Below are positions 3,870 to 51,928 of a stretch of 64,000 nt of DNA, piece by piece (position 1 is the first letter of the stretch; the number at the start of each line of letters is the position of its first letter). Source of the stretch: Natronorubrum sediminis. Lineage in GTDB: Archaea; Halobacteriota; Halobacteria; Halobacteriales; Natrialbaceae. The stretch spans positions 230,748-294,747 of the forward strand of contig NZ_FNWL01000002.1 of assembly GCF_900108095.1 (NCBI RefSeq). The letters are read 5' to 3'. The notes below the pieces were generated by a model. That model made no database searches. It was not told the origin of the DNA and saw only the letters and a program-made list of their open reading frames with translations. The translations under genes and the position numbers were made by a program.

Positions 3870-4363
3870 CCACGAGGTGCAACGAGCGCAGTTTCGGTAC
3901 CGTCGCTTCGAATGTCTCCGCTTCGAACGAACGAGCGTCGATCAGTAACGAGGCACACGCGACCAGACCTCGAGTCGAACAGCCGGGTACTTTTCGTTTC
4001 CGGCGATACGTGTTATCGCCACGTTGTCCACTATTACAGGATAGTGGATTCGATTGTCCACTAATAATCCAGTTTACGTCGTACATGCCGCAGTAGATAG
4101 CTTTATTATTTAACGAACTGACTATCGAGTGTCGGCAGACGCCGACGCTGCGATTACCTACCGAGTGTACGAACGCGCCGGTGGATCACTCGTGCTCAAC
4201 TCAGGGCGGTCACTCGTGGCTGTGTGACCGTCACGTAACCGTTCGTGGGCCACGTCCCGCCCCGTCCTTTGGCCCACACTAGTAAATCACCTCGAGTCTC
4301 ACGGCTGGCGTCGGTGATCAAATGGGGTAGTTATTCATACTCATCAGCGAGTGTTCATTGATA
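3870..4363. other. Intergenic region with two hairpins and a spaced direct repeat
   Basis: About 490 bp without a convincing ORF. It contains a perfect 7-bp inverted repeat at 4002-4008/4014-4020, a perfect 8-bp inverted repeat at 4027-4034/4041-4048, and an exact 10-bp direct repeat TTGTCCACTA at 4024-4033 and 4054-4063. An AT-rich stretch (TTTATTATTT) follows near 4101-4110. The cluster could be an operator or a small structured RNA. Nothing else was recognised. Confidence 0.5.
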
Positions 4364-4945
4364 ATGACTCCCACAGCAGCCGAAGGACACGGGAGTGTCA
4401 CACACACCGAAGGAGACGATTCTGGGGGTGAGGACGAGATTTCTCTCGAGCCCGATGACATCCATCACATTCTCCAGACACAACGTCGTCGTGACGTGCT
4501 TCGATATCTTCGGCGAAGCGACGAACCGGTCGTGTTGAGCGATCTCGCCGAACAGGTCGCCGCCTGGGAACACGAGACGACCGTCGACAATCTCCACTCG
4601 GATCAACGCCAGCGCGTCTACATCTCGCTGTATCAATCGCACTTACCGAAGCTGGATGCGCGTGGAATCATCGACTACGACAAGGATCGAGGGACGATCA
4701 GGACGAAGCCGCCACTCGTGCAGTTCGATCCGTATCTAACTGGGCTCGAGAACTCGAGTTCGGGTAATCCGTGGCCGTTTCGTTACGCGGGCACCGTAGG
4801 TTGTTGTGGAGTTGCCACCGTCGTCGTCGCCAGCGGCACGGTGTCAGTTCCGTGGAGTAGCGTTACGGCTGTCATTCTCGCGGTGTTTGCGCTTCTCGCA
4901 GGAGTACACACGTACACGACGTGGCACACTGAGGGCACTGACTGA
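4364..4945 (+). CDS. DUF7344 winged-helix-like regulator with C-terminal membrane segments
   Basis: 193 residues. After an acidic N-terminal tail of about 35 residues, residues ~35-115 form a DUF7344 domain (haloarchaeal HTH-like fold): I-L-Q-T-Q-R-R-R-D-V-L-R-Y-L, L-A-E-Q-V-A-A-W-E, Q-R-V-Y-I-S-L-Y-Q-S-H-L-P-K-L and G-I-I-D-Y-D. The C-terminus has two closely spaced hydrophobic helices (about residues 148-190), so the domain is likely tethered to the inner face of the membrane. A TTG two codons upstream extends the frame, but ATG 4364 is the conventional choice. It belongs to the same family as the genes at 12186 and 22537. Ligand and targets are unknown. Confidence 0.75.
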   Translation: MTPTAAEGHGSVTHTEGDDSGGEDEISLEPDDIHHILQTQRRRDVLRYLRRSDEPVVLSDLAEQVAAWEHETTVDNLHSDQRQRVYISLYQSHLPKLDARGIIDYDKDRGTIRTKPPLVQFDPYLTGLENSSSGNPWPFRYAGTVGCCGVATVVVASGTVSVPWSSVTAVILAVFALLAGVHTYTTWHTEGTD

Positions 4946-4994
4946 ACGACCAACGTGACCGACGCGAACGACGGGCGGGTCGCCGCGACACCGA

Positions 4995-5450
4995 TCAGTC
5001 AGCGTGGGAGTGGCGAGGTGAATCCGGTTCGCGAGTAACTGTCGACTCGAGGATTTCGTGTGCATAGAATGCGACCGAGAAATCCTGTGGGCTGGGGATC
5101 GAACACGCGAGCCAGCCGATCGTTATCGCCGTCACGATCGGGGAATCGAACGAGAGAAACTCGAGTCTAGCAATCCCGAGAACGGGAACGACGAGCAAGA
5201 GCGGAGAGAGTGCAGCAACCCGAAGCTGCCAGGCAGGTTCCCGACCGCTTGGATAGGGAGTGACCGATGCCCACGGGCAACTGGTGAACATCTTGATGAC
5301 GCCCCGCTTTCGATCCGGGCCGTACGTGATCGTGTAGTCGATTCGGGCGAGGCGGAGCACGAATGCGTGGAGCCACTCGTGGAGAACGAGTCCACTCACT
5401 ACTGCAAAGGCGAGCGAGCATCCAGCAACCAGCAGTTCCGTTCCGACCAT
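4995..5450 (-). CDS. Membrane protein with a HEWLH (HExxH) zinc-protease-like motif
   Basis: 151-residue integral membrane protein with about three or four hydrophobic segments. The first segment leads into V-L-H-E-W-L-H, an exact HExxH motif in a membrane helix, as in M50/site-2-protease-like and DUF3267-type proteins. A later S-P-Q-D-F-S-V-A helix falls where such families carry a further Asp metal ligand. It is shorter than a full M50 protease. The gene converges on the DUF7344 gene with 49 bp between them. Intramembrane metalloprotease activity is an inference from the motif; it may be a non-catalytic relative. Confidence 0.6.
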   Translation of the reverse strand: MVGTELLVAGCSLAFAVVSGLVLHEWLHAFVLRLARIDYTITYGPDRKRGVIKMFTSCPWASVTPYPSGREPAWQLRVAALSPLLLVVPVLGIARLEFLSFDSPIVTAITIGWLACSIPSPQDFSVAFYAHEILESTVTREPDSPRHSHAD

Positions 5451-5689
5451 GATAGCGACGCGAGACGACGGGACGTATTCGAGGTGGGATCACTGGTGGA
5501 CGAACACGTCCCGGCGTCTCACGCACGCTGATCTGATGACTGCGGACGGAAGCCACTCCTGCTTCAACTGTTGCTTCATTAAGCGATGACGACAGGCTCG
5601 CCGATCCAAATTCCAGATTACTCTCGATTGGCTGATGAACGAACGGCAGCCAGCCAAGAACTAAGTATTGTTGGGTGGTACCTAATACC

Positions 5690-6421
5690 ATGTCATCCAG
5701 TGAACCCCTCGAGTTCGGCCACGACGACCGTAAGCGCATCTACGAGTACGTCGAACGCCACGGTGCCGTCGAACCCGATACCGTCCAGGAGGACCTCTCC
5801 ATCGATCCGAGCGGATTCAGACATCACGTCGCCATCCTCAAACGCGACGGGCGACTCGAGCGCGAAGACGGAACGCTTCGAGTAACGATGGCTGCCGGTG
5901 CCGAAGAAGAGTACGTTTCCGACGACCTCGAGTTCCACATCCGGCCGGCCAGACAGGAAGACCTCACGGGGATCGTCGGTGCGATTCGCCAGGTCGCAGA
6001 GGAGAAGACCTACATCGAAGCCGAGAGCGTTGCCGACGAAATCGACCACCAGGAGACGCTGCTCCGGCACAACGAAATCGAGTCCCGGATGTTCTTCGTC
6101 GCAACCGTCGAGGACGAGGTCGTCGGCTGGGTTCACCTCCACGCGCCGGAACTCGAAAAGCTCTCACACACGGCCGAACTCACCGTCGGCGTCTTAGACG
6201 AGTACCAAGGGTACGGAATCGGCTCGCATCTCCTCTCGCGGGGACTCGAGTGGGCTGGCGCGAACGGCTACGAACGCGTCTACCAGAGCGTCCCCTCGAG
6301 CAACGAAGAGGCCATCGCGTTCCTCGAAGCCCACGACTGGGAAACTGAAGCCGTCCGCGAGGACCACTACAAACTCAACGGCCACTACGCCGACGAGGTG
6401 ATGATGGCCCTCGAGTTGTGA
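5690..6421 (+). CDS. GNAT family N-acetyltransferase with N-terminal HTH domain
   Basis: 243 residues. The first ~65 residues look like a winged helix (D-D-R-K-R-I-Y-E-Y-V, then H-H-V-A-I-L-K-R-D-G-R-L-E-R). From about residue 80 a GNAT acetyltransferase domain begins: I-R-P-A-R-Q-E-D-L, the acceptor strands G-W-V-H-L-H-A, and the acetyl-CoA loop V-L-D-E-Y-Q-G-Y-G-I-G-S-H-L-L (the R/Q-x-x-G-x-G/A motif). The substrate is unknown. ATG 5690 is preferred over an in-frame GTG at 5675. An AT-rich word at 5661-5669 is suitably placed for a leaderless promoter. Confidence 0.85.
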   Translation: MSSSEPLEFGHDDRKRIYEYVERHGAVEPDTVQEDLSIDPSGFRHHVAILKRDGRLEREDGTLRVTMAAGAEEEYVSDDLEFHIRPARQEDLTGIVGAIRQVAEEKTYIEAESVADEIDHQETLLRHNEIESRMFFVATVEDEVVGWVHLHAPELEKLSHTAELTVGVLDEYQGYGIGSHLLSRGLEWAGANGYERVYQSVPSSNEEAIAFLEAHDWETEAVREDHYKLNGHYADEVMMALEL

Positions 6422-35151: not shown

Positions 35152-36132
35152 CTACACGTACCCCAGCGCGCTGAGTCGATCCTCGACCACGTCGTCGTCG
35201 GCGTCCGTCTCGTCGACCGATTCGACTGGCGGTTCGGCGACGGTTTTTCGTCGCTCGGTGTGCTCGGCCTCGAGCCACGGGACGGCGAGTAACTGGTCCA
35301 TGTGAAGCCCGCGCGGGTGACCGTAGAGGCGAATCGGAATCGGGAAGCCGCGCTCGCCGATCAGATTGCCGTGATCCGCCGTGACGACGCTTTTGCCGTC
35401 GAGTTCCTCGATGAGTGTTTCGACGTGTGGTAAGGTGAGATCGAGGTTTTCGCGGTAGGCCGCGACCACCGTCTCGATGTCGATATCCTGTTCGTGGACG
35501 AGTCCGAACCAGGGGTTCGGCGCGCTCGAACGCTCCTCGTCCTCGAGGTGGTGTTCGAGTCCCATGTGCGAGAAGCGCTGGCCGGTCGGGCCGATGAACG
35601 GGAAGTGTGGCTGCATGAAGTGGACGATCAGTCGCTTGTCCGGGTAGCGTTCGTGGGCGGCGATGGCCTCCTCGACGACCGTTTCCGGGCGGACCGTTCG
35701 GGTCTCCTCGTCCCAGCCTCGCTCGAGCAAGTCGACGACCGCGTGGAAGACGTCGTCCTCGAGTTCGTAGACGTGTGGATTGGCCGTGACGTAGACGGTA
35801 TCGTGGAGCGATCGGCCCTCGAAGTTCGTCTCCATGAACTCCCAGCTATCGCTGCCCAGTGACCGTTTTCGAGACAGTTCGCCCTCGAGGTCTGACTGGG
35901 CGGCGAACATATCGTAGCGACAGCCGTCGAGAATGAGGAGATTGTCCCAGTCGGCGGCGATCATGTCGATACCGTCCGTTCGTCCGGCGCGGGCCGACTG
36001 GAGTCGACTCGCTCGAGCGTTCACCCTCAAACCGAGCGTGAACGCTTCCTTTTTGAGGAGTCGCGGATTTCGGGCGACTTTCTCGACGTTCTCGAGCGAG
36101 TAGCGATCGGGGAGGAGCGAGCCAACGGCCAT
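35152..36132 (-). CDS. Alkaline-phosphatase-superfamily (sulfatase-like) protein
   Basis: 326 residues with the metal-binding framework of the sulfatase/phosphatase fold: an N-terminal metal Asp in L-L-I-L-D-G-C-R-Y-D-M-F, and V-V-T-A-D-H-G-N-L-I-G-E near the end. H-F-M-Q-P-H-F-P-F-I-G lies between. The Cys/Ser-x-P-x-R formylglycine motif was not found at the usual place, so classic sulfatase activity is doubtful. The C-terminus ends D-R-L-S-A-L-G-Y-V, a tail shared with the proteins at 36255 and 50264. It lies beside another sulfatase-like gene and a flippase, suggesting work on surface glycans. Confidence 0.75.
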   Translation of the reverse strand: MAVGSLLPDRYSLENVEKVARNPRLLKKEAFTLGLRVNARASRLQSARAGRTDGIDMIAADWDNLLILDGCRYDMFAAQSDLEGELSRKRSLGSDSWEFMETNFEGRSLHDTVYVTANPHVYELEDDVFHAVVDLLERGWDEETRTVRPETVVEEAIAAHERYPDKRLIVHFMQPHFPFIGPTGQRFSHMGLEHHLEDEERSSAPNPWFGLVHEQDIDIETVVAAYRENLDLTLPHVETLIEELDGKSVVTADHGNLIGERGFPIPIRLYGHPRGLHMDQLLAVPWLEAEHTERRKTVAEPPVESVDETDADDDVVEDRLSALGYV

Positions 36133-36254
36133 AGGTGTCGCGAACCGCCAGATCCGCTTTGTTAGTCAGGGAGAAACGATCGGTACGACGCCGTTACTCG
36201 AGTGACGACGACGCTGTTACTCCAGTGGCGACGGCCCGCGAATCGGCCCGTCGC

Positions 36255-37688
36255 TCAGACGTAGCCGAGTTTCTCGAGTCTGTCCTGAACGCCTTCGTCG
36301 ACGCCGTCGGTCGTGCTGTCGGCCGCCTCGGCGAGCGCCTCCCGTTTGTACGCGTAGGCATCCGCGTCAAAGCGCTCTGTCGCCCACTCTGGTACGGTCG
36401 CATCGTCGTCGACGCGTCGCTGCCAGCCCGGCCGATCTCGGTCGAGTTCGTACTCCTCGCGGCCGCCCTGGGAGTCCCAGACGTATTTCATCGTGCCGTC
36501 GTAGGCCGCCCGCATCAGCCGGTCCCAGTGCTCCGTGCGGTCCGGCGGTTCGGGTCCGGCGCTCATACCGATGTGTTCAGCGACGACGCGCTCGCTCGTC
36601 GGGTCGACGACCTCGTCTCGAGCCATGGTCGCGAGCAGCGAGCGAAGCTCGAGGTGGGAGACGTAGCGGTCTTCGGTCTCCGGGTAGCCCTCGGGCGGGT
36701 TGCTGACGAGCAGCGGGACGTGTACCAGCCCCTCCGAGAGGCTGCTCTTGTGTCGGACGAGGCCGTCTTCGAAGTCGTAGCCCTGGTTCTCGCCGTGGTC
36801 GGCCGTCACGACGACCGTCGTCTCGCGACTCGTCTCCGCGTGAATCCACTCGAGGAACGCGTCGATCGTTCGGTCGAGGTACTCGATGGACGCCCCGTAG
36901 AGCTCCCGGCGCGTCTCGAGGAACTCGCGGTGGTCGTCTGCCGATTCCATTAGCTCCCAGACGGTGTGCTCGGCGGTCGTGAACGTATTCGATGCCGAGT
37001 GAAGCGATCGGTCGAAGCCGCGGATATGGCGAAGCGGCGTGTGGGCCTCCATGAACGAGCCGAACAGGAAGAAGGGCTCCTCGGTGTCGTCGATCAGTGA
37101 CCGCGAGGTTCGGGTCACGGCGCTCGCCCCGTCGTCGAACAGCTTCGGAATCGGAGCGGTCTCGGAGACGGTGTCGAGGAACCCGACGGCTCCGTTCGCC
37201 AGGCTGGCACCTGGATGGTCGTGCGTCAGTGACCGTCGGAGATACTCGAGGTACGCACCCGAACCCGTCCGTTCGGTGTCGCTGCGGACGGCGACGGGGT
37301 CCAGTCCGTTGGGGTATCGATAGGCTTCCGTGATATCGACGAACTCGTCGAAGAAGGCGTCGAAGCCGTAGGCCGACCCGGCGAAGACGTTCGTGCTGAC
37401 GCCCAGCGCGCGGTGTGACTCGAGGTCGCCGAGGAGGGTCTCCTCGCGGTCGATCCCGGTCACGTGCGTATCGTGCGTGTGAACGCCGTGTTCGTGTGGG
37501 AGTTGCCCCGTCATCATGCTCGCGTAGCTGGGGGCGCTCCAGGAACTCGCGGCTCGGCACTGCTTGAACGTCAGATCGGCTCGGTTGGAGAGGCGGGCGG
37601 CACAGTCGTCGAACGTGTCCTTCCGAACGGAGTCGAGACAGAGAAACACGACATTTCGCATGCCCGGTCTGTTCACGAACGCACTCAT
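36255..37688 (-). CDS. Sulfatase-like hydrolase
   Basis: 477 residues. Metal-site Asp19 lies in F-L-C-L-D-S-V-R-K-D. The catalytic segment reads S-W-S-A-P-S-Y-A-S-M-M-T-G, so Ser51 occupies the formylglycine position, but the Arg of the C/S-x-P-x-R motif is Tyr. V-V-T-A-D-H-G-E-N supplies later metal ligands, and H-K-S-S-L-S-E-G-L-V-H-V-P-L is typical of the family. The C-terminus Q-D-R-L-E-K-L-G-Y-V matches neighbouring relatives. ATG 37688 is preferred to GTG 37709. It is divergent from the flippase gene (221 bp between starts). Substrate unknown; a role in surface polysaccharides is inferred from context. Confidence 0.85.
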   Translation of the reverse strand: MSAFVNRPGMRNVVFLCLDSVRKDTFDDCAARLSNRADLTFKQCRAASSWSAPSYASMMTGQLPHEHGVHTHDTHVTGIDREETLLGDLESHRALGVSTNVFAGSAYGFDAFFDEFVDITEAYRYPNGLDPVAVRSDTERTGSGAYLEYLRRSLTHDHPGASLANGAVGFLDTVSETAPIPKLFDDGASAVTRTSRSLIDDTEEPFFLFGSFMEAHTPLRHIRGFDRSLHSASNTFTTAEHTVWELMESADDHREFLETRRELYGASIEYLDRTIDAFLEWIHAETSRETTVVVTADHGENQGYDFEDGLVRHKSSLSEGLVHVPLLVSNPPEGYPETEDRYVSHLELRSLLATMARDEVVDPTSERVVAEHIGMSAGPEPPDRTEHWDRLMRAAYDGTMKYVWDSQGGREEYELDRDRPGWQRRVDDDATVPEWATERFDADAYAYKREALAEAADSTTDGVDEGVQDRLEKLGYV

Positions 37689-37909
37689 TGTTACGGACCT
37701 GTTACTCACGAACTGGTCGGTGATTCGATGGCACTCTCGGAGCCTTCCGGGGTTGTTAGCCTCTCCTACGCCGAAACTTCGGTAACGAGGTTATGACAGT
37801 CACAGTGGGTAACCGTCCGGCGCTCACTCGACGCGCTCTCGACAGTTCCTCACTCACCACCGAGTAACCGGTCCACTACTATAGGCGTCGTTCGGGAATC
37901 GAGCCAACG

Positions 37910-39406
37910 ATGACGGAAGACTCCTCTCGTGGACTCTCGGATCTCCGATCGGTCGCCGACGGTGCCTCGCTATACTACCTTGGAACCATCGTCGTCAACA
38001 TCGTCGGCTTCCTGTTGAACCTCCTGTTAACTCGGGTGCTTGGGGCGAGCGTCTACGGTATCTACGCGTACGGGACGATGATTCTCGCCGCGGTGTTGCC
38101 CTTCGCGAACCTCGGGTCGGACATCTCGATCACCCGCTATCTCTCCGCGAACAAGGACGACACGGCCTACCAGCAGCGAATGCTCGGGCTAGCCTACCTG
38201 ACGACGCTCGCGATCAGCGGCGTCGTCGCGGGCATACTCTTCGTCGCCGCCCCGACGATCAACGCCTACACGCTCGAGGAGTCGCTGTTCACGACGGCGA
38301 TGCAGGCGTTCGCGATCGCACTACCGTTTCAGGCCCTCACACAGGTCGCCGCGAGCACGATGCGCGGCCTCGAGCGGCCACCCGAAAAGACGGTCATCAT
38401 GGTCGTCGGACCGGCGCTGCAGTTGATCGCGATCGCCGCCGCGATCGTCGTCGGCTACTCGCTGCTGGGCGTCGCTGCGGCGTTCTCCGTCGCGGCGATC
38501 ATGGCCGCACTGTTCGCGATTTCGTACTCGCTGGTTCGTGCCGACCTCCGGCCCGCCGCGGGCTACTCGAAGGATGAGGTCAAGGAGTTCTACAACTTTT
38601 CCGCGCCGCTGACGCTCTCCCAGGCCGCTTCGTTTCTGTTCAAACGCGTCGACGTGTTCATGGTCGGGATCTTCCTCGCCTCGGCCGACGTCGGTATCTA
38701 CAACATCGCCGTGCTCCTGGCTGGCGTCATCGCGATGCCCCTCGCCGGATTCAACCAGTTCTTCCCGCCCGTCGCCTCCCGACTCTACTCGAACGAGGAG
38801 TACGACACCCTCGAGTCGATTTACGCCACCGTGACTCGCTGGTCCATCACAGCCTCCGTCATCGTCGCACTACCGCTTTTCATCTACCGAGCCGAAGTCC
38901 TCGCAATTTTCGGCCCGGAGTTCGTCGCCGGAACGGCCGTTATCGCGCTGTTCGTCGCTGCACAACTGTTCAACGCCGCCGCCGGACCCGCAAACGACAT
39001 TCTCATGATGACAGATCACCAGTACGTCGTGATGGGCAACCACTTCGTCTTCGGTCTCGCCAACGTCGGACTCAACTACGTCTTCATCCTCGAGTTCGGG
39101 CTCATCGGCGCGGCGATGGCGACGGCCGGCACGCTGGCCTCGTTGAACGCCCTCCGGGTGCTTCAGGTGTGGTATCTCGAGGGACTGTTCGCCTACTCCC
39201 TCGAGATCTGGAAACCGATCGTCGCCGCCGCCGTCGCCAGCGTCATCATGTACAGCCTCCACCTCTCGTTTGATGGGCTCATCCTCGCAATCGTCGGCGG
39301 CGCGCTCGGCGTCGGCGCGTTCCTCGCGACGCTGTACATGCTCGGAATCGACGAGGAAGACCGACGAATCGCCGACGAATACCTCGGCATGGTTCCGGAC
39401 CGATAA
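37910..39406 (+). CDS. Oligosaccharide flippase (Wzx/AglR-type, MATE-like)
   Basis: 498-residue integral membrane protein with about 14 hydrophobic helices. The start Y-Y-L-G-T-I-V-V-N-I-V-G-F-L-L-N-L-L and the segment L-G-S-D-I-S-I-T-R-Y-L-S are typical of polysaccharide-biosynthesis flippases; so is A-A-S-F-L-F-K-R-V-D-V-F-M-V-G further on. The family flips lipid-linked sugars across the membrane for N-glycosylation (AglR in Haloferax) or exopolysaccharide. No glycosyltransferases are adjacent, only the sulfatase-like genes. A CTACTATAG element about 30 bp upstream may be its promoter. Confidence 0.88.
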   Translation: MTEDSSRGLSDLRSVADGASLYYLGTIVVNIVGFLLNLLLTRVLGASVYGIYAYGTMILAAVLPFANLGSDISITRYLSANKDDTAYQQRMLGLAYLTTLAISGVVAGILFVAAPTINAYTLEESLFTTAMQAFAIALPFQALTQVAASTMRGLERPPEKTVIMVVGPALQLIAIAAAIVVGYSLLGVAAAFSVAAIMAALFAISYSLVRADLRPAAGYSKDEVKEFYNFSAPLTLSQAASFLFKRVDVFMVGIFLASADVGIYNIAVLLAGVIAMPLAGFNQFFPPVASRLYSNEEYDTLESIYATVTRWSITASVIVALPLFIYRAEVLAIFGPEFVAGTAVIALFVAAQLFNAAAGPANDILMMTDHQYVVMGNHFVFGLANVGLNYVFILEFGLIGAAMATAGTLASLNALRVLQVWYLEGLFAYSLEIWKPIVAAAVASVIMYSLHLSFDGLILAIVGGALGVGAFLATLYMLGIDEEDRRIADEYLGMVPDR

Positions 39407-40898: not shown

Positions 40899-42653
40899 AT
40901 GGTACTCGAGAGTGCACTCTCTGCCGATCTCGCCGTTATTCTCTTGAGTGCAACATTTGCCGGTTTTTTAGCCAAGCAGACGGGACAGCCGACGATCATC
41001 GCCTACATCCTCGCCGGAGTCGTCATCGGCCCGGCGGCGCTCGGGATCGTCGAGGTCAGCGAACTGACAGAGTTGCTGTCCGAACTCGGCCTCGCGTTCT
41101 TGTTGTTCTTGCTCGGGATCAAGATGCGAATCGAGGAGATTCGACACGTCCTCGCGCCGATCGTCAAAATCTCGATCCCGCAGATGATCGCCGTCTTTCT
41201 CGCCGGCGTCGGCGTTTCGATAGCGCTCGGGTTCGCCCCGCTCGAGGCGTTCCTCATCGGGCTCGCCGTGATGTACAGTTCCACCGCGGTCGTCATCAAA
41301 ATGCTCACGGACAAGGACGAGGCGACTTCGCTTCACGGCAAGTTAGACGTCGGCGTGTTGCTCGTCCAGGACGTCGTCGTCGTCATTATTCTGGCCGTGC
41401 TGGCGGCCGGGCAACCGGAGAGTGTCGCTGAGGTCGCAACGACACTGGCGGTCGTGCTCGTTCTCGTCGCGCTGGTCACGGTCGCGGCGCTCGTTTCCTC
41501 CTGGACCGTCCTGCCGGCCGTTTTTCGGCGAATCGCCGACAACAAGGACGTGTTCTTCCTGATCGCCATTTCGTGGGCGTTCCTGTTCGTCTTCGTCTCC
41601 GACAACATCAACCTCTTTCTGGAGCCCCTGGGCATCGAGGCGTACCTCTCGATCGAGATGGGCGCGTTCATGGCCGGAGTCGCCATCGCCCAGCTTCCCT
41701 ACAGCAAGCAGTTACAAGACCGCGTCAACCCGCTGACCGACCTGTTCGTCATGGTGTTTTTCGTCTCGGTTGCACTCGACCTCGAGGCCAGTCAACTCTT
41801 TGCGTACACGCAGGAGGCGATTATCGCGGCGCTGATCCTGATGCCGGTGAAGTTCCTCATCTTCTTCTATCTAATCGATTGGCAGGGATTCGGCTCCGAA
41901 ACGACGTTTCTCGGGAGTCTCACCATGATTCAGGTCAGCGAGTTCGGCATCATCGTGACCGCCGTCGCATTCGAGGGCGGATTCGTCGACGCCGAGATTC
42001 TCGGGTTCATGACGCTCCTCGCCATCTTCACGATGGCCGTCTCGGTGTACTTTATCGAGTACAGCCACGCCCTGTACGAGCGGTTCGAACCGACCATCTC
42101 TCGGGTGACGAGCGACGGCGACTTCGGGGGCGGGAAGCAGGACTATCACGATCACGCGGTCGTCATCGGCTACGACGACGTGACGCGAAACGTTCTCCCC
42201 CTGCTGGCAGACCGCTACGAGGACGTGGTCGTCGTCGACCGGACTGTCGAGCACATCGGTACCCTCGAAGAGGAGGGATACGACACAGTGTATGGCGACT
42301 TCCGTAACGCGACGATCCGGAAGGACGTGGCCGTGAAGAAGGCTGACTTCGCTCTCTCCTCCTCGGTCGAACCCGCTGTAAACAAGGCGTTGCTCCGCGA
42401 AACCGGCGACGACACGACCGTTTTCGCCGGTGCGGACCGGATCGAGCACGCACGCGATCTCTACGACAGAGGTGCACACTGTGTCATCATGACTCCCTAC
42501 CTCGCAGGCGATCGACTCGCCGACTACCTCCGGGCGTATCTCGAGGAAGACGAGCGATTAGACGAGGAGATCGACGACGACGTCGAACTGCTCGAGAGTA
42601 CCGAGCCGTTCCCGGACACGTACGAGCGACTCGGAGGTGGTCTCGATGAGTGA
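40899..42653 (+). CDS. CPA2 cation:proton antiporter with degenerate RCK domain (A-type subunit)
   Basis: 584 residues. About 12 helices form a Kef-type exchanger: A-K-Q-T-G-Q-P-T-I-I-A-Y-I-L-A-G, L-A-F-L-L-F-L-L-G-I-K-M, and M-G-A-F-M-A-G-V-A-I-A-Q-L with F-F-V-S-V-A-L. From about residue 415 comes a TrkA-N/RCK-like Rossmann domain (H-A-V-V-I-G-Y-D-D-V-T-R-N-V) whose glycine motif G-x-G-x-x-G is lost. Probably exchanges Na+ or K+ for H+. It overlaps the next gene by 8 bp (ATGAGTGA), so the two are translationally coupled. Its closest relative in the window is the gene at 46135. Confidence 0.9.
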   Translation: MVLESALSADLAVILLSATFAGFLAKQTGQPTIIAYILAGVVIGPAALGIVEVSELTELLSELGLAFLLFLLGIKMRIEEIRHVLAPIVKISIPQMIAVFLAGVGVSIALGFAPLEAFLIGLAVMYSSTAVVIKMLTDKDEATSLHGKLDVGVLLVQDVVVVIILAVLAAGQPESVAEVATTLAVVLVLVALVTVAALVSSWTVLPAVFRRIADNKDVFFLIAISWAFLFVFVSDNINLFLEPLGIEAYLSIEMGAFMAGVAIAQLPYSKQLQDRVNPLTDLFVMVFFVSVALDLEASQLFAYTQEAIIAALILMPVKFLIFFYLIDWQGFGSETTFLGSLTMIQVSEFGIIVTAVAFEGGFVDAEILGFMTLLAIFTMAVSVYFIEYSHALYERFEPTISRVTSDGDFGGGKQDYHDHAVVIGYDDVTRNVLPLLADRYEDVVVVDRTVEHIGTLEEEGYDTVYGDFRNATIRKDVAVKKADFALSSSVEPAVNKALLRETGDDTTVFAGADRIEHARDLYDRGAHCVIMTPYLAGDRLADYLRAYLEEDERLDEEIDDDVELLESTEPFPDTYERLGGGLDE

Positions 42654-44349
42654 CCTGCTCACCGCGGTCTCGATCATGTTCATCGTGGCGGGGCCGTTCT
42701 TGTTGGTCGCCAATCGCTACGACCTGCCGACTGTCCCGCTGTTGGTGCTCGCGGGGATCGTCACCGGCTTCGGATTTGACGCCTTCGGGATCGACGAAGC
42801 GCTCACGCTCGAACTCGCACAGTACGGAATCGCGCTACTCGTGTTTTCGTTCGGCGTCGAGATCGATATCTCCGCAGTGCGGACGGTGATCGTCGACAGC
42901 GAACTCGCCGCGCTCGCACAAATCCTCGTCGTCGGCTCGCTCGGGGTCGGGTTCGGGGTCGTCCTCGGCGTCCCGCCCGAAGAGGCACTCTTCCTCGGTG
43001 TGGCCGCGGCGCTCTCGTCGACGCTCGTCGGGACCGCACTGTTACAGACGGAGATCGAGATGAATCTGGTTCGCGGCCGATTGGCCAGATCGATCCACTT
43101 CTCACAGGACCTGCTGGCAATCTTGTTCGTCCTCGGATTGAGCGCCGGGACGCTGGCCGTCGGTCCGATCGCGACGCTCGTCGGGTATGGCCTCGCGTTG
43201 CTCGTCGCTGCCGTCCTCGTCAATCGGTATCTGTTCGACGTTGTCGGCCGACTGGCCGGCGACTCGGACGAACTCATGATCCTCGGCGTCGTCTCGCTGC
43301 TCGCGGTGTTCGTCGGCGCGGCGGAGTTCGCTGGCATCTCGCTCGCTGTCGGTGCGTTCGCCGCCGGACTCGCGGTCCGACACGACCCCGTCGAGCACCT
43401 CGGCCTGTTCAACGGCCTCGAGTCGATCAAGGACTTCTTCGTCGCGATTTTCTTCGTGACGATCGGTGCGCTCGTCGTCCTCCCGTTTGTCGAACTCGGC
43501 TGGAACGAGTCCGTCGAGAAGCTGGTCCTCGTGGCCGGACTCGTCTTCCTGACGGCAGTGGTCAAGCCGGCGATCACCACGATCATTCTGCTCCGCCGAG
43601 GGTACGAAGCTCGCTCTGCGACGCTGGCAAGTCTCAGCAGCGATCAGGTTAGCGAGTTCGCGCTCATCATTGCGATCGAAGCGCTGTTGCTCGGGCTGGT
43701 GACCGAATCGGTGTTCGACGCGATCATCCTCGCGGCCGCGGTGACGATGGTGACCTCGAGTCTCACACAACGCTACGACGAGCAGGTCTATCGGACCCTC
43801 GCTGACCGGGACCTGATAACCGGACGACACGGTAAAATCGACGAGTGGAGCGACGTCTCCGCTCACCTCTTCGATCACGTCGTCATCGTCGGCTACGGCC
43901 GACACGGCCGAAAGCTGGCCGAAACCTGTGAAGCCCTCGAGCAACCGTACGTCGTCGTCGAGAACGATCCGCTCCGCAGAGAACTCGTTACCGAGGAGTG
44001 CGACGCATTCGTCTTCGGCGACGCGATGGAACGCTACACGTGGGAGAAAGCGAACGTAAAGGACGCGAAACTCGTCGTCTCGACGGTCGACTCCGAGCCA
44101 GTTTCCAGGCGCGTTCTGTCGTTCGGATCCCAGAGCGACGTCATCTTGCAAGCGAGTGATCAGCCGACGGCGTTCGACTTACTCGAGGACGGCGCGTTGT
44201 ACGTTAGCGTTCCGAATCTACTCGCCGGGAAGCAACTGACCCACCAGATACGCGCCCTGTTAGACGACGACGTGTCACCCGCAGAACTCCGCTCGGAACA
44301 GCTCGAAGAGCTAGAGAACCAACCCGACGTTCCGCACCACCACTTGTGA
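42646..44349 (+). CDS. CPA2 antiporter with intact RCK domain (B-type subunit)
   Basis: 567 residues from ATG 42646 (a GTG lies three codons upstream). The membrane domain is a divergent CPA2 fold: G-I-A-L-L-V-F-S-F-G-V-E-I, S-S-T-L-V-G-T-A-L-L, V-G-A-F-A-A-G-L-A-V-R and F-F-V-A-I-F-F-V-T-I-G-A. The C-terminal RCK/TrkA-N domain has a proper dinucleotide motif, V-I-V-G-Y-G-R-H-G-R-K-L, followed by a TrkA-C-like end. It is co-translated with the A-type gene. Its closest relative in the window is the gene at 44463. Confidence 0.9.
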   Translation: MSDLLTAVSIMFIVAGPFLLVANRYDLPTVPLLVLAGIVTGFGFDAFGIDEALTLELAQYGIALLVFSFGVEIDISAVRTVIVDSELAALAQILVVGSLGVGFGVVLGVPPEEALFLGVAAALSSTLVGTALLQTEIEMNLVRGRLARSIHFSQDLLAILFVLGLSAGTLAVGPIATLVGYGLALLVAAVLVNRYLFDVVGRLAGDSDELMILGVVSLLAVFVGAAEFAGISLAVGAFAAGLAVRHDPVEHLGLFNGLESIKDFFVAIFFVTIGALVVLPFVELGWNESVEKLVLVAGLVFLTAVVKPAITTIILLRRGYEARSATLASLSSDQVSEFALIIAIEALLLGLVTESVFDAIILAAAVTMVTSSLTQRYDEQVYRTLADRDLITGRHGKIDEWSDVSAHLFDHVVIVGYGRHGRKLAETCEALEQPYVVVENDPLRRELVTEECDAFVFGDAMERYTWEKANVKDAKLVVSTVDSEPVSRRVLSFGSQSDVILQASDQPTAFDLLEDGALYVSVPNLLAGKQLTHQIRALLDDDVSPAELRSEQLEELENQPDVPHHHL

Positions 44350-44462
44350 CGCTGGGCTCGGGTGGCGTCTCGGACCGCCTCGAGACGCGAGGCACCGACA
44401 ACACCGGCGCGTTCACAATCGCCGGGTGAGGCTCTCCTCGCGGCGATCCGGTGAATCGGCCC

Positions 44463-46142
44463 TCACAGCCGCTCGTTTCTCGTGGCGAATCCGTATCGCT
44501 CGAGCGTGTCGAGCGTCTCGAGGTGATCGTCTCGTAACGTCACCTCGTCACCGCCCTCGCTGATCGCCGTTTCGACGGTCTCGATCAGTCGATCCGAGGC
44601 CATCACGTTCGGCACGCTGACGTACGTCGCTCCCTGCTCGAGGAACTCCGCTGCGGCTGCAGACGTTTCGGTGCGAACGATGACGTCGGCGTCGGTTTCG
44701 ACCTCGAGGACGGCCTCGCTGACGGGACGATGATCGACTGTCGAGACGATGAGGTCGGCGTCCGTTACCGCTGCCTTCGTCCACGGATACGTCGAGATCA
44801 CGTCACCGAAGACGTAATTTTGACACTCCGTCCGGATGTCGTCCCAGACCGCGGGATCGTTGTCGACGACGACGTACTCGCGCTCGAGTCGTTCACAGGT
44901 TTCGACGAGGCGACGGCCCTGTCGGCCGTAGCCGACGATAATCACGTGATCGTCGATGTCTTCAGAAACGTGACTCCGCTCGTCAATTTTGTTCGTCTGT
45001 CGGCTGGCGACGACTCGTTCGACGATCTCGTGATAAACCGGCTCTTCGTACCGTCTGGCGACTGACGTCAGAATCATCGTGAGGGCTGCCGCCAGGATGA
45101 TCGCCTCGAACAACGTCTGCGAGATGGTCTCGAACAAGTACGCCTGAATCGCGATGACGAGCGACAGTTCGCTGACCTGATTGAGACTCGCACTCGAGAG
45201 GAACGCGGTTCTGGCGTCGTAGCCCTCGTAGACGAACGAGAGCATGAGGACGAGCGGATTGACGAAGAGGACGAGCGTGACGAGAGCGAGGGCGACGGGG
45301 AAGACGGTGAGACTCGAGATCGAGACCAACGCGCCGAGCGTGACGAAGAAAATGGCGACGAAGAAATCTCGGATCGACGCGATGCCGTTTTGGACGCCGA
45401 GTGACGAGACTTCGTCGCTTCGAATCGCGATTCCGGCGGCGAACGCGCCCACGACGATCGAGACGCCGGCGTATTCGGCTCCCGCGAGGAACGCGATGAG
45501 GATCGAAATACTCGCCATCATCAACAGTTCGTCCGAGTCGCCGGCGAGTCGAGCGACGAGCGGGAACCCGTGTCGGTAGACGAGCAACGCGCCGAGGAGG
45601 AGGATCACGCCGTAGCCGATCTGGGAAGTAACTTGCGTCGAGGTGTATTGATCCGCGGTCAAGACGAGAATCAGTCCGATCGCGAGGAGGTCGTCGAAGA
45701 AGTGCACCGACGAGGCGAGCCTACCGTGAACGAGATTGCTCCGGATCTCGCGCTCGAGTTCGCGCGCGCCGACGATGGTCGAACTCAGCGTCGCCGCGAT
45801 GGCGAAGTAGACGGCGTTCTCGATGCTAAAGCCAAACAGAAGGTACGCGACGCCGATTGCGATCGGACCGACGACCAACAGTTGGGTAAACGCGGCCGTT
45901 TCGGCGTCTCTGAGGACCGATTTGATGCTCGAGAAATCGGTTCGGAAGCCGAAGGTGAACACGAGGAAGGCGATCCCCCACTGCGCGAGTTCGAGCAACT
46001 GCGTCTCCTCGATCGCGAGGCCGGCGACCACCCCCGCGAGGAGGTAGAACGGGATCGGCGAGAGCGATAGCTGATTGGCGATCAGCAGGAAGATCCCTGC
46101 GGTCACGAAGACGATCGCGAGCGTCGTGATCAGTTCAGTCAT
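44463..46142 (-). CDS. CPA2 antiporter with intact RCK domain (B'-type subunit, mirror copy)
   Basis: 559 residues from ATG 46142; a GTG at 46151 is less likely because the ATG sits in the coupling overlap ATGACTGA with the upstream gene. Organisation matches the B subunit at 42646: W-G-I-A-F-L-V-F-T-F-G-F-R, S-S-T-I-V-G-A-R-E-L, V-G-A-F-A-A-G-I-A-I-R, D-F-F-V-A-I-F-F-V-T-L-G-A and an RCK motif I-I-V-G-Y-G-R-Q-G-R-R-L. It converges on the B gene with 113 bp between stops. Confidence 0.9.
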   Translation of the reverse strand: MTELITTLAIVFVTAGIFLLIANQLSLSPIPFYLLAGVVAGLAIEETQLLELAQWGIAFLVFTFGFRTDFSSIKSVLRDAETAAFTQLLVVGPIAIGVAYLLFGFSIENAVYFAIAATLSSTIVGARELEREIRSNLVHGRLASSVHFFDDLLAIGLILVLTADQYTSTQVTSQIGYGVILLLGALLVYRHGFPLVARLAGDSDELLMMASISILIAFLAGAEYAGVSIVVGAFAAGIAIRSDEVSSLGVQNGIASIRDFFVAIFFVTLGALVSISSLTVFPVALALVTLVLFVNPLVLMLSFVYEGYDARTAFLSSASLNQVSELSLVIAIQAYLFETISQTLFEAIILAAALTMILTSVARRYEEPVYHEIVERVVASRQTNKIDERSHVSEDIDDHVIIVGYGRQGRRLVETCERLEREYVVVDNDPAVWDDIRTECQNYVFGDVISTYPWTKAAVTDADLIVSTVDHRPVSEAVLEVETDADVIVRTETSAAAAEFLEQGATYVSVPNVMASDRLIETVETAISEGGDEVTLRDDHLETLDTLERYGFATRNERL

Positions 46143-47871
46143 CGTCGTCACCTCTGGCTCCGGTCGGTCGCTCCTCGGGTCTGCGTCCTCGGTCGTCCCC
46201 GCGTTCGCGGATCTGCTCGATATCCCGTTCGATCGATTCGTAGAACGCCTCGCGGTCGGTGACGTAGCGCTCGAGGTACTCGCCGAGTTTCTCGGCAGTC
46301 AGTTGTGTACTCATGATGACGTAATCCGCACCGCGGTCGTAGAGGTCGCGGGCGTCGTCGATTCGCTCGGCCTCGACGAAGGTGATCGCATCCTCGTCGA
46401 CTTCCTCGAGCAGCGCGCGGTTGACGTCCGGTTGGACGGTCGAACTCAGGACGAACGACGCGTTCTTCAGGTTCGCCGCCTTGCGGATCTCGCCGTGGCG
46501 GAAGTCGCCGTAGATGTACTCGTAGCGACCCTCGTCTTCGAGCGCTTCGATGTGGTCCGTCTGTCGGTCGATGATGACCACCTCGCCGTACTCGTCCTCG
46601 AGGATGGGCAAGACGCGTTCCGTGATCTCGTCGTACCCGATCGCGATTGCGTGGTCGTCGTACTCCTCGAGGTCGACGTCGCCTTTGCCTTCGGACTCGA
46701 AGCGGCTGAACCACGGTTGGGCGTGGCCGTAGATGGTGTGATTGTAGTTGATGATGTACGTCGAGACGCTCATCGTCAGTAGTGCCATCAGGCTGAGATA
46801 GCCGAGCACGTCAGTGCCGATGTATCCCTGTTGGACCGCGAGCGCGCCGACCACCAGCGAGAACTCGCTGACCTGCACCATGTTGATCGCCCCGAGGAAC
46901 GACGTTTCGACGCTGAAGTCCTCCCGGTCGATCAGGTAGAACATGATCCAGAAGTTGCCGACCATCAACACGACCGACGCGACGATCGCCTCGAGCCAGT
47001 AGGCGAGTAAGTCGTCGGCGGCCAGTTGCAAGCCGATACTGACGAAGAAAATCAAGATGAAGAAGTCCGTAATCGGCGTGATTCGATCCTCGAGTTCCTT
47101 GCTGTAGGGCAACTGGGCGACGCTGATGCCCGCGAGGAAGGCACCGACCTCGAGCGAGAGGTCGAAGTACTCCGAGATGGCGATGAAGAAGAACGCCCAG
47201 GCGATGGCGACAACGAGGAAAACGTCCTTATTGTCCGCAATCCGCCTGAAGAGACCGGGGAGTAAGTACCGCGAGGAGGCGATGGAGAAGAGACCGATGA
47301 AGGTCATCATGACGGCGATGACGCCGAGTGTCGTCGCGATTTCACTCGCACTACTGAGTTCGTCAGCGCCGAGCAACGCGAGGACGACGACGAGGTAGAT
47401 GTCCTGGACGATGAGGACGCCGACGTCGATCTTGCCGGGCAGAGAGGTAATTTCGTTCTTGTCGGTGAGAATTTTGACGATGATCGGCGTCGCCCCGAAG
47501 ACGGTCGCGAGCGCGATGATGACGATCTCGGTTGGGTCGAAGCCGAGCGCCCACGCGACGGCGAGCGCGAGCGCCGTCTGAAGGATCGTCTGCCAGACGG
47601 CGATGTTGACGATCGGGCGGAGGATCTCTCGGATATCGTCGAAGCGCATCTTCATCCCGAGTAAGAACAGCAAAAATCCGAGGCCGAGTTCGGCCATGCT
47701 CTCGACGAGTTCGCCCTCGGAGACGATGTCGAACATCACCGGGCCGAGAATCAGCCCCGTCAGAATGTAGGCGATGATCGTCGGCTGGCCCGTCTGGCGG
47801 GCGAGCAAGCCGACCGCTGTCGCAGCGACGATGATGATAGCAAAGTCGGCAGCGAGAGCAATTTCGCTCAT
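46135..47871 (-). CDS. CPA2 cation:proton antiporter with degenerate RCK domain (A'-type subunit, mirror copy)
   Basis: 578 residues, the counterpart of the A subunit at 40899: A-R-Q-T-G-Q-P-T-I-I-A-Y-I-L-T-G, L-G-F-L-L-F-L-L-G-M-K-M and V-G-A-F-L-A-G-I-S-V-A-Q-L-P-Y-S-K-E. Its RCK-like region reads H-A-I-A-I-G-Y-D-E-I-T-E-R-V, again without the glycine triad, and keeps the same D-A-R-D-L-Y-D-R-G-A segment as its sister. It is first of its two-gene operon and overlaps the B' gene by 8 bp. The C-terminus has a charged tail (~40 residues) absent from the A copy. Confidence 0.9.
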   Translation of the reverse strand: MSEIALAADFAIIIVAATAVGLLARQTGQPTIIAYILTGLILGPVMFDIVSEGELVESMAELGLGFLLFLLGMKMRFDDIREILRPIVNIAVWQTILQTALALAVAWALGFDPTEIVIIALATVFGATPIIVKILTDKNEITSLPGKIDVGVLIVQDIYLVVVLALLGADELSSASEIATTLGVIAVMMTFIGLFSIASSRYLLPGLFRRIADNKDVFLVVAIAWAFFFIAISEYFDLSLEVGAFLAGISVAQLPYSKELEDRITPITDFFILIFFVSIGLQLAADDLLAYWLEAIVASVVLMVGNFWIMFYLIDREDFSVETSFLGAINMVQVSEFSLVVGALAVQQGYIGTDVLGYLSLMALLTMSVSTYIINYNHTIYGHAQPWFSRFESEGKGDVDLEEYDDHAIAIGYDEITERVLPILEDEYGEVVIIDRQTDHIEALEDEGRYEYIYGDFRHGEIRKAANLKNASFVLSSTVQPDVNRALLEEVDEDAITFVEAERIDDARDLYDRGADYVIMSTQLTAEKLGEYLERYVTDREAFYESIERDIEQIRERGDDRGRRPEERPTGARGDDDD

Positions 47872-48424: not shown

Positions 48425-50191
48425 CTAGTCGTCCGCGAGCACCGTTTCCCCAGCGCTCGCTGGCGAGATGTTGCTCGAGGCCGGTTTCGTCACGAGACAG
48501 TCCTCGAGGACGAGCACGTCCAGTCCCATGCCGTAGAAGTCCTTGAGCGCCTCGGTGGGCGTGTTGACGATGGGTTCGCCGTTGTCGTTGAACGACGTGT
48601 TGAGGAGGACGGGCACTCCCGTCACGTTCTCGAACTCCTCGAGCAGCCGATAGTAGCGCGGATTTTGCTCCTCGCGGACGGTCTGTGGCCGGGTCGTGTC
48701 GTCAGCGGGGTGGACGATCGCCTCGAGGTCGGCTCGTTTCTCCTGGCTCACGTCGAACGTGTCGATCATGAACGGACTCTCCGTCGCGTCCTCGAGGTAG
48801 GTTTCGGCTGCCGACTCGTGCATCGAGGGGGCAAACGGCCGCCACTCCTCTCGGTGTTTCACGAATCGGTTCACTCGATCGCGCGAGGCCTCCGTTCTGG
48901 GGTCTGCGAGAATGCTCCGATTGCCGAGTGCGCGCGGGCCCAACTCCGCCCGTCCCTGAAACCAGCCCACGAGTGCGCCGTCGGCGATCAGTTCCGCAAC
49001 CCGTCGCTCCAGATCGTTCGGTTCGGAGTACGCGACTTTGTTCGTCTCGAGGAGTGTGCGGATCTCGTCGCTCTCGTACTCCGGGCCCCAGTAGGCGGTC
49101 GTCATCGGCTCGACGTCGGCCGGCCGCTGGTCGATCCAGCCGCCGCCGAGGGCCAGTCCCGCGTCGTGTGCAACCGGCTGGACGAACACGTCGTCGACCG
49201 CGGAGAGTTCTCTGACCGTCTTGTTCAACTTGCAGTTGAGGACGACGCCACCCGCCAGCCCCACGTTCGACGTGCCGAGGCGTCGGGCGTACGTCTCGAC
49301 TAACTCCGCGACGGACTCCTCGAGGAGTTTCTGGGCGGTGTGTGCGAGGTCCTTCTCGAATTGGTCGAACTCGCCCGTCGGTTCGGAGGGTGGCCGACCG
49401 AGGAGTTCCTCGAGCGTGTCGACGCCGTGTTCGGTCCCCCACCGACCGGTGAGAGCCGTGACGTCGTAGTCGACTCCGGTGTCGATCGCCTCTCGAAGCC
49501 GTCGTTCGATCGCTGGATTGTCCTCGCCGTAGGGGGCGAGGCCCATCACTTTCCCCTCGCCGTTGTACATCCGATAGCCGAGGTAGTTCGTGACGGCGGC
49601 GTAGAACAGTCCCCAGCTATTGGGGTGTTCGTACGTCCGGACGCGTTCGAGTCCGTCGGGAGTCGCGTGCCAGATGACGGTCGACTCGTACTCGCCTTTT
49701 GCGTCGATGGTGACGACCAGCGCCTCCTCGAACGTCGATGGGTGGAACGCGGTCACGGCGTGACACTCGTGATGAGAGCGACACTCGATGGGCGGCACGG
49801 GGGTGTCGATCTGCTCGAGTCGGGATTCGACGATCCGCGTCGGCATGAACCGCGCCATGAACTGGTCTCTGGCGACGTTCTGGAGGTGTGATACCTTCCG
49901 GAGCGTGCTGTCGAGTTGCCTGGTGTTCTTCAGATAGTGGCCGAGGATGTTCGACCGAAGCGATGGATCGTACGGCAAGACGATCTTCTCGACGTCCGTG
50001 AGGGAGATTCCCTCGTACTCGAGGCAGGCGCGAATCGCCTTCTCCGGAAAGGTGTCGACCGCGTGCTTCTCTCGAGTGAGGCGCTCTTCTTCGATGGCGA
50101 AGACGAGTTCGCCGTCGTCGAACAACGCCGCACTCGGGTCGTGCTGTCCGTAGAGGTCGATCGCTGGTTTGAACGCGAGGTGGTAGCTCAT
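48425..50191 (-). CDS. NodU/CmcH family O-carbamoyltransferase
   Basis: 588 residues. It transfers a carbamoyl group from carbamoyl phosphate, via an adenylate intermediate, to a hydroxyl of a sugar or other acceptor. The N-terminal ASKHA-like Kae1-type domain shows H-D-P-S-A-A-L-F-D-D-G, F-A-I-E-E-E-R-L-T-R-E-K-H and H-H-E-C-H-A. The segment V-G-L-A-G-G-V-V-L-N-C-K-L-N follows. The C-terminal domain has G-R-A-E-L-G-P-R-A-L-G-N-R-S-I-L and V-L-L-N-T-S-F-N. The next upstream gene (72 bp away, same strand) is an alkaline-phosphatase-fold phosphodiesterase; together they suggest modification of a surface glycan or lipid. The acceptor is unknown. Confidence 0.9.
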   Translation of the reverse strand: MSYHLAFKPAIDLYGQHDPSAALFDDGELVFAIEEERLTREKHAVDTFPEKAIRACLEYEGISLTDVEKIVLPYDPSLRSNILGHYLKNTRQLDSTLRKVSHLQNVARDQFMARFMPTRIVESRLEQIDTPVPPIECRSHHECHAVTAFHPSTFEEALVVTIDAKGEYESTVIWHATPDGLERVRTYEHPNSWGLFYAAVTNYLGYRMYNGEGKVMGLAPYGEDNPAIERRLREAIDTGVDYDVTALTGRWGTEHGVDTLEELLGRPPSEPTGEFDQFEKDLAHTAQKLLEESVAELVETYARRLGTSNVGLAGGVVLNCKLNKTVRELSAVDDVFVQPVAHDAGLALGGGWIDQRPADVEPMTTAYWGPEYESDEIRTLLETNKVAYSEPNDLERRVAELIADGALVGWFQGRAELGPRALGNRSILADPRTEASRDRVNRFVKHREEWRPFAPSMHESAAETYLEDATESPFMIDTFDVSQEKRADLEAIVHPADDTTRPQTVREEQNPRYYRLLEEFENVTGVPVLLNTSFNDNGEPIVNTPTEALKDFYGMGLDVLVLEDCLVTKPASSNISPASAGETVLADD

Positions 50192-50263
50192 GGGTTCGTC
50201 AAATCACTCGGTGTGGATTGCTGCCGGGTCGTCGAAGCGGACTGGCCATCGCCGTCTGCACGA

Positions 50264-51928
50264 TTACTGAACATACCCGAGGTCCTCGAGTCGGCTTTCG
50301 ACTCCCGAATCGACGGCGTCTGCCGCCTCCCCGTGGTACGCGGGATAGGACATCGGTTCGGATTCCTCGACGATCGGGAGCACGCGTCCGTCCATCCGAT
50401 CACTGTAGGGAACGCCGAGGGCGGAGAGAATCGTCGGCGCGACGTCGAAGAGGTGTGCGTCCTCGACCGGCACCGAGGCGTCGATTCCCTCCCCGCTCGC
50501 GGCGAAGACACCCTCGAGTTTGTGGTTCCAGGGTTCCGTCGTCTCGTCGAAGTATCCCTCAGCGGGTTCCGCGGAGAGGAAGTGCTGGAAGTCGTTCGGA
50601 ACCGTCACGATATCGACCGCGCGGTCGGTGTAGGGCCCCTCGAAGTACGCCTCTCGCGGTGCGACTTCCTGGAAAACCGGCTCGCCGTCGGGTGCCTCCG
50701 CCGACTCGAGTTCGCGGATGAGTGCCGCGCGGACGTCGTCGTACTCCTCTTGTGGGACTACTCCCTCGGGATCGCGACCCTCGACGTTCATCCGCACGCC
50801 TAGTTCGGTTCGCGCACGGACGTAGGCCTTCGAGTTCGGGAAGTCGACCTGTTCGTTTCCAGTTCGGACGACGCCATCCGGCGCGTGCTCCTTCGCGAAT
50901 TCGGCGAGCCCGAGTCGCTCGAGGACCCGGCCGATTCGGTGGGTCGTCATGCCGAGGCTCGCTAACCCTGCGGCGAGGCGTTCGACGGTGCCCGGTTCCC
51001 ACTCGTCGGCTTGTTCGCCCTCGCGAAGGTCGTCTCGCATGACGTTCCACGTCGGCATCCCCTTCCCGCCGAGGGTGGTCTCGACGTAGCCGGCGTTCTC
51101 GAGGAAGGTGTTGACGCGAAACTCCGGTTTCTCGTAGCGGCCAATGCCGTGATCGCTCGCGATGAACACCTGTCGTGGGTTACAGGACTCGAGGACCTCG
51201 CCGATCTGTTTGTCCGTCTCGGCGTAGACCTGTTTGACCTTCTCCCACTCGCCTTCGAACTCGTGGAAGACGGTGTCGGTCTTCTGGAACTGCAAAAAGC
51301 CGAAGTCCGGCTCGAAGCGATCGCTGAGATACTGGAACGCTTGCCCCCGCATCGAAACGAGCGAGCAGTACTCGTCCATCTTTTCAGCAGGCGACAGCGA
51401 GTCGTCGCCCCTCGAGTATTCGGGATAGACGCGATACTCGCCGATCTCCTCGCGAACGTCGTCGAGGATTCCCGTCGGGTGACACGGCGGATCTTCCGGG
51501 CCGATAAACCCGGGGATAATCGCGCCGTCGATATCGTCCGGCGGATGCGTTACCGGTACGTTGACGACGACACTCGAGCGATCGTGGTGGTCGAGCAGCG
51601 TCCAGAGTCGATGTGCGCGAACGTCGTCACCTTTCACGACGTGGAAGTCGTAGCCGTCGAAGCCAGTGAATCCGTAGACGCCGTGCTTCCCGGGATTGAC
51701 GCCGGTGAACATGGAAGGCCAGGCGCTCGGCGTCCACGGCGGAATCTGTGACTCGAGTTCGCCACTCACGCCCGTCTCGAGAAGCGACTCGAGGTTCGGG
51801 ATCACGTTTTCGTCCGCCAGCCGGTCGAATACCGAGAGGCAACCGGCGTCGATTCCGATGAGTAAGGCGTCCATCCGGTTTCGACCCGACTCCCCGTCCG
51901 TCTGGTCGGCCGCTGCATTCCGTGTCAT
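50264..51928 (-). CDS. Alkaline-phosphatase-superfamily phosphodiesterase/nucleotide pyrophosphatase-like protein
   Basis: 554 residues. The first metal Asp is in L-L-I-G-I-D-A-G; the nucleophile region is P-P-W-T-P-S-A-W-P-S-M-F-T-G, with a Thr as in phosphodiesterase/pyrophosphatase members. N-P-G-K-H-G-V-Y-G-F follows, and later I-A-S-D-H-G-I-G. The tail S-R-L-E-D-L-G-Y-V-Q is shared with the two sulfatase-like proteins at 35-37 kb. The ATG at 51928 has an AT-rich element (AATATTACTTAT on the + strand) about 35 bp upstream. A start at Met19 (51874) is possible. Probably co-transcribed with the carbamoyltransferase gene. Confidence 0.85.
   Translation of the reverse strand: MTRNAAADQTDGESGRNRMDALLIGIDAGCLSVFDRLADENVIPNLESLLETGVSGELESQIPPWTPSAWPSMFTGVNPGKHGVYGFTGFDGYDFHVVKGDDVRAHRLWTLLDHHDRSSVVVNVPVTHPPDDIDGAIIPGFIGPEDPPCHPTGILDDVREEIGEYRVYPEYSRGDDSLSPAEKMDEYCSLVSMRGQAFQYLSDRFEPDFGFLQFQKTDTVFHEFEGEWEKVKQVYAETDKQIGEVLESCNPRQVFIASDHGIGRYEKPEFRVNTFLENAGYVETTLGGKGMPTWNVMRDDLREGEQADEWEPGTVERLAAGLASLGMTTHRIGRVLERLGLAEFAKEHAPDGVVRTGNEQVDFPNSKAYVRARTELGVRMNVEGRDPEGVVPQEEYDDVRAALIRELESAEAPDGEPVFQEVAPREAYFEGPYTDRAVDIVTVPNDFQHFLSAEPAEGYFDETTEPWNHKLEGVFAASGEGIDASVPVEDAHLFDVAPTILSALGVPYSDRMDGRVLPIVEESEPMSYPAYHGEAADAVDSGVESRLEDLGYVQ

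Follow-up and report, generated by a model that had tools for sequence, protein, structure and literature searches.

A candidate two-subunit CPA2 cation/proton antiporter with unequal RCK domains in haloarchaea

Among the CPA2 antiporters, KhtTU divides its functions between two genes, one of which transports while the other encodes a separate, soluble TrkA_C regulator. The glutathione-gated K+/H+ antiporter KefC (KefC/KefB; 8bxg, 8by2, 9emb) and the Na+/H+ antiporter NapA are homodimers, and in KefC each RCK domain holds AMP, which stabilises the dimer, and a Gln-Asp (QD) motif forms the K+ site, with DD or ND as the Na+-exchanger motif (PMC11150392). The independence of the two protomers, or of the two RCK sites, is hard to test in KefC and NapA because one gene encodes both. 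YbaL, also an RCK-fused CPA2 protein, is encoded in E. coli by a single gene with an intact nucleotide motif.

The window described here, a stretch of 64,000 nucleotides from Natronorubrum sediminis, carries two pairs of genes, designated A and B, so far annotated solely as 'cation:proton antiporter'. The A/B pair is a variant within the KefC-type CPA2 antiporters, and searches of the open-access literature returned no description of a pairing with asymmetric RCK domains and no heteromeric CPA2/RCK antiporter, in agreement with the initial annotation, which knew of no CPA2 system of such build. Cation/proton antiporters are mentioned in the main text of the genome paper on Natrialba magadii, but A/B pairing is not.

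Both A and B match KefC in sequence and fold over the whole chain, with QD in A and in about half of B and the AMP-pocket arginines in B, whereas KefC is a homodimer from one gene and here there are two genes, one of which (A) lacks the nucleotide pocket. The KefC AMP pocket (GxGxxG, R409 and R496) is present in most B, with B1 aligning Gln at R496, and absent from A, and the GSH-gating arginine R416 is not retained (mostly Pro in A, mostly Glu in B). Where the NCBIfam KefB/KefC models matched, scores of 77-140 bits fell far below the equivalog cut-offs of 752-804; the best NCBIfam match of B is the YbaL family, which has R409 and R496 as in B, but the scores were 106-119 against a cut-off of 700. 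NapA resembles the pair in membrane fold and shares the DD motif with B2, but is a homodimer without an RCK domain and, like KefC, has Lys where B2-type DD sites have Asn. KhtTU belongs to this superfamily and is likewise encoded by two genes, but here both A and B are membrane antiporters with a fused RCK_N and no PF02080. KhtTU-like genes (a PF00999 antiporter and a PF02080 protein) also adjoin A/B pairs in several loci (L018:10618-11919 and L020:1035-2853, with similar genes in L024, L037, L047 and L052).

Gene layout and the overlap of A and B

The four open reading frames form two convergent operons in the window (A1B1> <B2A2):

40899..42653, plus strand: A1, CPA2 antiporter with C-terminal RCK and degenerate nucleotide motif (PF00999 at residues 16-381, PF02254 at 421-531)
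42646..44349, plus strand: B1, CPA2 antiporter with C-terminal RCK and intact GYGRHG (PF00999, PF02254; conserved ATG start)
44463..46142, minus strand: B2, paralogue of B1 with intact GYGRQG (PF00999, PF02254; conserved ATG start)
46135..47871, minus strand: A2, paralogue of A1 with degenerate motif (PF00999, PF02254)

All four are full-length CPA2 antiporters with a fused TrkA-N/RCK domain. PF00999 spans the membrane part and PF02254 (TrkA_N) the C-terminal part in 4/4 proteins, with scores above the Pfam cut-offs, as expected from the earlier statement that all four end in TrkA-N/RCK-like domains; the same Pfam search gave no match to PF02080 (TrkA_C) in the four. Identity is 49% between A1 and A2, 46% between B1 and B2 and 27% between A1 and B1. 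The AlphaFold2 models (mean pLDDT of 75 for A1 and 85 for B1, with A1 weak around its altered pocket) have KefC as their best PDB match and NapA as the next in Foldseek, and the predicted fold superposes loosely on KefC (rmsd ~13 Å over both domains) and, for the membrane part, on NapA at 4-5 Å. The antiporter block is flanked (window 35152-39406 and 48425-51928) by genes that by eye look surface-glycan-like, among them sulfatase/phosphatase-like proteins, a flippase-like membrane protein and a carbamoyltransferase-like protein.

The conserved start of B is an internal ATG (42646 in B1, 46142 in B2) that lies 9 nt inside the longest open reading frame, which itself begins at a GTG (42637 for B1, 46151 for B2). 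With B starting at this ATG, the two genes share exactly 8 nt, ATGANTGA, after a Shine-Dalgarno-like GGAGGTG or GAGGTGA:

42633..42639, plus strand: Shine-Dalgarno-like GGAGGTG before the B1 ATG, within the A1 coding region
42646..42653, plus strand: stop/start overlap of A1 and B1, ATGAGTGA
46135..46142, minus strand: stop/start overlap of A2 and B2, ATGACTGA
46148..46154, minus strand: Shine-Dalgarno-like GAGGTGA before the B2 ATG, within the A2 coding region

The tight coupling of the genes reported for the window extends well beyond it, with the 8-nt overlap present in 57 of the 66 pairs for which gaps were computed and retained exactly across pairs as diverged as ~40% identity.

Linkage of A and B across genomes

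Searches of 194 Halobacteria genomes with an A profile and a B profile found A in 31 and B in the identical 31, and in these carriers the order is fixed, with A directly upstream of B on the same strand and contig ends accounting for the apparent exceptions. When 84,980 species genomes were scanned, 70 loci emerged, and in these B follows each A that is not cut off by a contig end. Neither gene was found complete without its partner among the 31 carrier genomes and the named loci, cut contigs excepted, no A/B fusion was seen among the ORFs, and the linkage holds through plasmid transfers and expansion to several pairs. In L051:2928-5180 and L057:3000-4723, A is split into two frames beside an intact B, either as a pseudogene or through assembly error. 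Among the 12 non-carrier haloarchaea checked, just 1 held a homologue with an E-value of 1e-25 or lower. The only related lone proteins (L135/L136) come from two genomes that share the phylum of the haloarchaea but lie outside their class, and have an intact GMGRFG with no B adjoining. Lone A genes as the norm were considered and rejected: none was found, and these A-like proteins fall outside the A clade.

A and B each form one clade, and their distance matrices correlate (mirror-tree r=0.90, compared with 0.08 for the best of 500 shuffles). In 25/25 same-locus swaps between two pairs, the cognate partner was preferred, and both results support the A/B interpretation of the initial annotation. 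In a reduced tree, A, B and L135/L136 lie on one side, with KefC, YbaL and the other archaeal solo proteins apart; A groups with L135/L136 (support 87) in this tree, and A and B need not be direct sisters.

Nucleotide pocket and ion sites

Aligned to G406, G408, R409 and G411 of KefC, the glycine motif is kept in B1 (GYGRHGRKL) and B2 (GYGRQGRRL) and lost in A1 (GYDDVTRNV) and A2 (GYDEITERV), exactly as first read:

42168..42185, plus strand: degenerate motif GYDDVT of A1
43891..43908, plus strand: intact motif GYGRHG of B1
44916..44933, minus strand: intact motif GYGRQG of B2
46621..46638, minus strand: degenerate motif GYDEIT of A2

The pattern recurs in 121 distinct pairs and is therefore not due to chance, with GxGxxG intact in 0/121 A, 105/121 B and 19/19 assessable solo archaeal relatives; chance loss of the motif in two proteins was rejected on the A and solo counts. 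The initial annotation had set two findings against its proposal, A-type genes occurring widely alone and an intact G-x-G-x-x-G as the norm in A, and the survey, with its strict co-occurrence and constant A-then-B order, returned neither: no lone A in the 31 genomes or named loci, and no intact A. Its rule of one intact and one degenerate partner stands for A and for most B but is not universal, as ~12% of B (15/120 readable) are without GxGxxG. These include the clade of the third pair of this genome and a handful of others:

L012:2942-6416 (G000 contig C1, ~790.9-794.4 kb): third A/B pair, with A at 2942-4774 and B at ~4767-6416

This third pair has lost both RCK glycine motifs, with GYSRLS in A and DFEHGG in B; its clade contributes DEG/DQG to the B motif exceptions and has ED at the B ion site. 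Since this clade is without the motif in both subunits, an intact B is a majority rule, and with the few others it indicates that the architecture can do without an intact site.

The description of the A motif as simply lost also needs qualification. When the pocket residues are mapped on the KefC-AMP structure (PMC11150392), the positions of the AMP-phosphate-binding arginines R409 and R496 are Arg-Arg in 94/121 B and acid-acid in 97/121 A, with window A1 and B1 as exceptions at 496, where they align Gly and Gln, respectively. A has a pattern of its own, D-E/D-T ... D-R ... E with Asp at the second glycine position (D408 in 112/121, E or D409 in 100/121, D429 in 112/121, R430 in 111/121 and E496 in 107/121), and these replacements are conserved in every family with A. 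Judged by these residues, the A pocket is conserved and remodelled and not decayed. One clade has the charges at 409 and 430 swapped (R409/D430 versus the usual E or D409/R430), and this swap in a single clade hints at an internal salt bridge between Arg and acid in the empty A pocket.

The difference between A and B reaches beyond the RCK domain to the ion site:

41367..41372, plus strand: QD of A1 (KefC Q155-D156)
43105..43110, plus strand: QD of B1
45690..45695, minus strand: DD of B2
47401..47406, minus strand: QD of A2, with Asn replacing KefC K307

The transport aspartate (KefC D156, NapA D157) is kept in 118/120 A and 121/121 B, and since both subunits retain it, both look catalytic. 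A always has Q at KefC position 155, with QD throughout save two QN, whereas B has QD, DD, ED or ND. The QD site with K307, the K+ site, is present in A1 and B1, while A2 has QD with Asn and B2 has DD with Asn. Within A, residues 125 and 307 go together as S125/K307 or G125/N307, and the partner of the N form is usually a B that is acidic at 155 and has no K307. Pairs with QD and Lys in both halves are here termed type I, and pairs with QD and Asn in A and DD/ED and Asn in B type II. This association of ion sites (Fisher 4e-18) was considered as evidence of contact between A and B and rejected, because on the tree it traces to about one deep change and is therefore not independent evidence. 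By analogy with the K+ motif QD of KefC, type I pairs are interpreted as K+/H+ antiporters, type II pairs being of uncertain ion and stoichiometry. One of the rare QN sites, with the transport aspartate changed to Asn, occurs in the A of L041 (4652-6334, minus strand), whose partner B has QD with Lys.

Type I and type II pairs face each other convergently, as in the window, in 15 of 16 multi-pair loci, a count that includes the window and its near-copy L016; the remaining locus is tandem, and some of the convergent loci carry further added pairs. Three or four A/B pairs with differing ion-site types lie side by side in L021, L023 and L045.

A possible heteromeric antiporter and its setting

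Taken together, the conserved residues and linkage suggest that A and B probably, though far from certainly, make up a single obligate CPA2 cation/proton antiporter, each contributing one half and B the nucleotide input. Such a protein would have the dimeric architecture of KefC and NapA but be heteromeric, and both halves, with antiporter fold and transport aspartate, would probably carry ions. The B RCK domain would provide a KefC-type AMP pocket through GxGxxG and its two phosphate-binding arginines, and the A domain, with Asp at the second glycine and both arginines acidic, would bind no nucleotide, its empty pocket perhaps filled by an Arg/acid pair. An RCK dimer of A and B would then present a single nucleotide site, not two, and A would be a structural or differently tuned half; the gene overlap would hold the two products close to a 1:1 ratio. 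Type I pairs would most likely exchange K+ for H+, and type II pairs another monovalent cation.

The main open rival, which we regard as rather unlikely, is that A and B form two co-expressed homodimers, each a separate antiporter with its own regulation or ion preference, that are needed under the same conditions. Co-occurrence and congruent trees are also compatible with two homodimers held together in an operon, as operon co-inheritance by itself yields congruent trees, and each subunit has a complete transport site with which it could work alone, as the homodimers KefC and NapA do (PMC11150392); the motif loss in A could then mean constitutive activity. Independent transporters should, however, occasionally be lost or relocated one at a time, whereas in the 31 genomes and the named loci neither gene was found complete without the other despite plasmid transfers and expansions, and the exact overlap persists in strongly diverged pairs.

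Other readings concern A itself. As RCK domains are described as responding to ions or nucleotides (PMC6957272), the acidic pocket might bind a cation (Ca2+, Mg2+, K+) or a small molecule, making A a regulatory half with a different ligand and the heteromer an integrator of two signals. The conservation of the pocket residues, not expected from unconstrained decay, speaks for this, but R430 among acids and the 409/430 swap fit an internal salt bridge equally well and this part of the A1 model is weak, and we consider a second ligand unlikely. If the A site became redundant after duplication and degenerated neutrally, no asymmetric mechanism would be needed; this reading could draw on the B proteins that are also without the motif, and on the third-pair clade where both partners are, yet the conservation of the A replacements in all families speaks against it, and we consider it improbable. 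Building on the obligate A/B antiporter, it is conceivable, though doubtful, that two catalytic and non-equivalent subunits with their own ion sites share an asymmetric RCK gate, in which B reads the nucleotide and A either reads a second signal or is a permanently closed pseudo-site, with parallel pairs in haloalkaliphiles of which type II possibly has a different ion or H+ stoichiometry. A natural A/B pair in which one RCK domain is intact and the other remodelled, and whose ion sites can be mutated separately, would allow the independence of protomers and RCK sites to be tested.

Haloarchaea maintain molar internal K+, and exchange by A/B may help them to hold a cytoplasm less alkaline than soda brine; the pair is a concrete candidate for how such cells live there. 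The named carriers, which we take to be largely haloalkaliphiles, include Natronorubrum, Natrialba magadii, hulunbeirensis and chahannaoensis, Natronococcus, Natrarchaeobius, Natronolimnohabitans and Halorubrum vacuolatum, and further carriers are metagenome-assembled genomes, many named after Kulunda soda-lake sets. Several carriers are probably neutrophilic and not alkaliphiles (e.g., Natrinema versiforme, Halorientalis salina and Halobium salinum), and carriage goes with haloalkaline habitat as an association and not as a statistic. Pairs on contigs binned to Salinibacteraceae, Gemmatimonadetes and Bacteroidetes (L079, L095, L084, L081), 59-70% identical to A1, are probably misbinned and possibly transferred. 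A genes also occur on plasmids of Natronorubrum bangense, Natronosalvus amylolyticus and Natrinema and on pNMAG02 of Natrialba magadii (L176), where an A/B pair was confirmed near transposase and TnpB genes.
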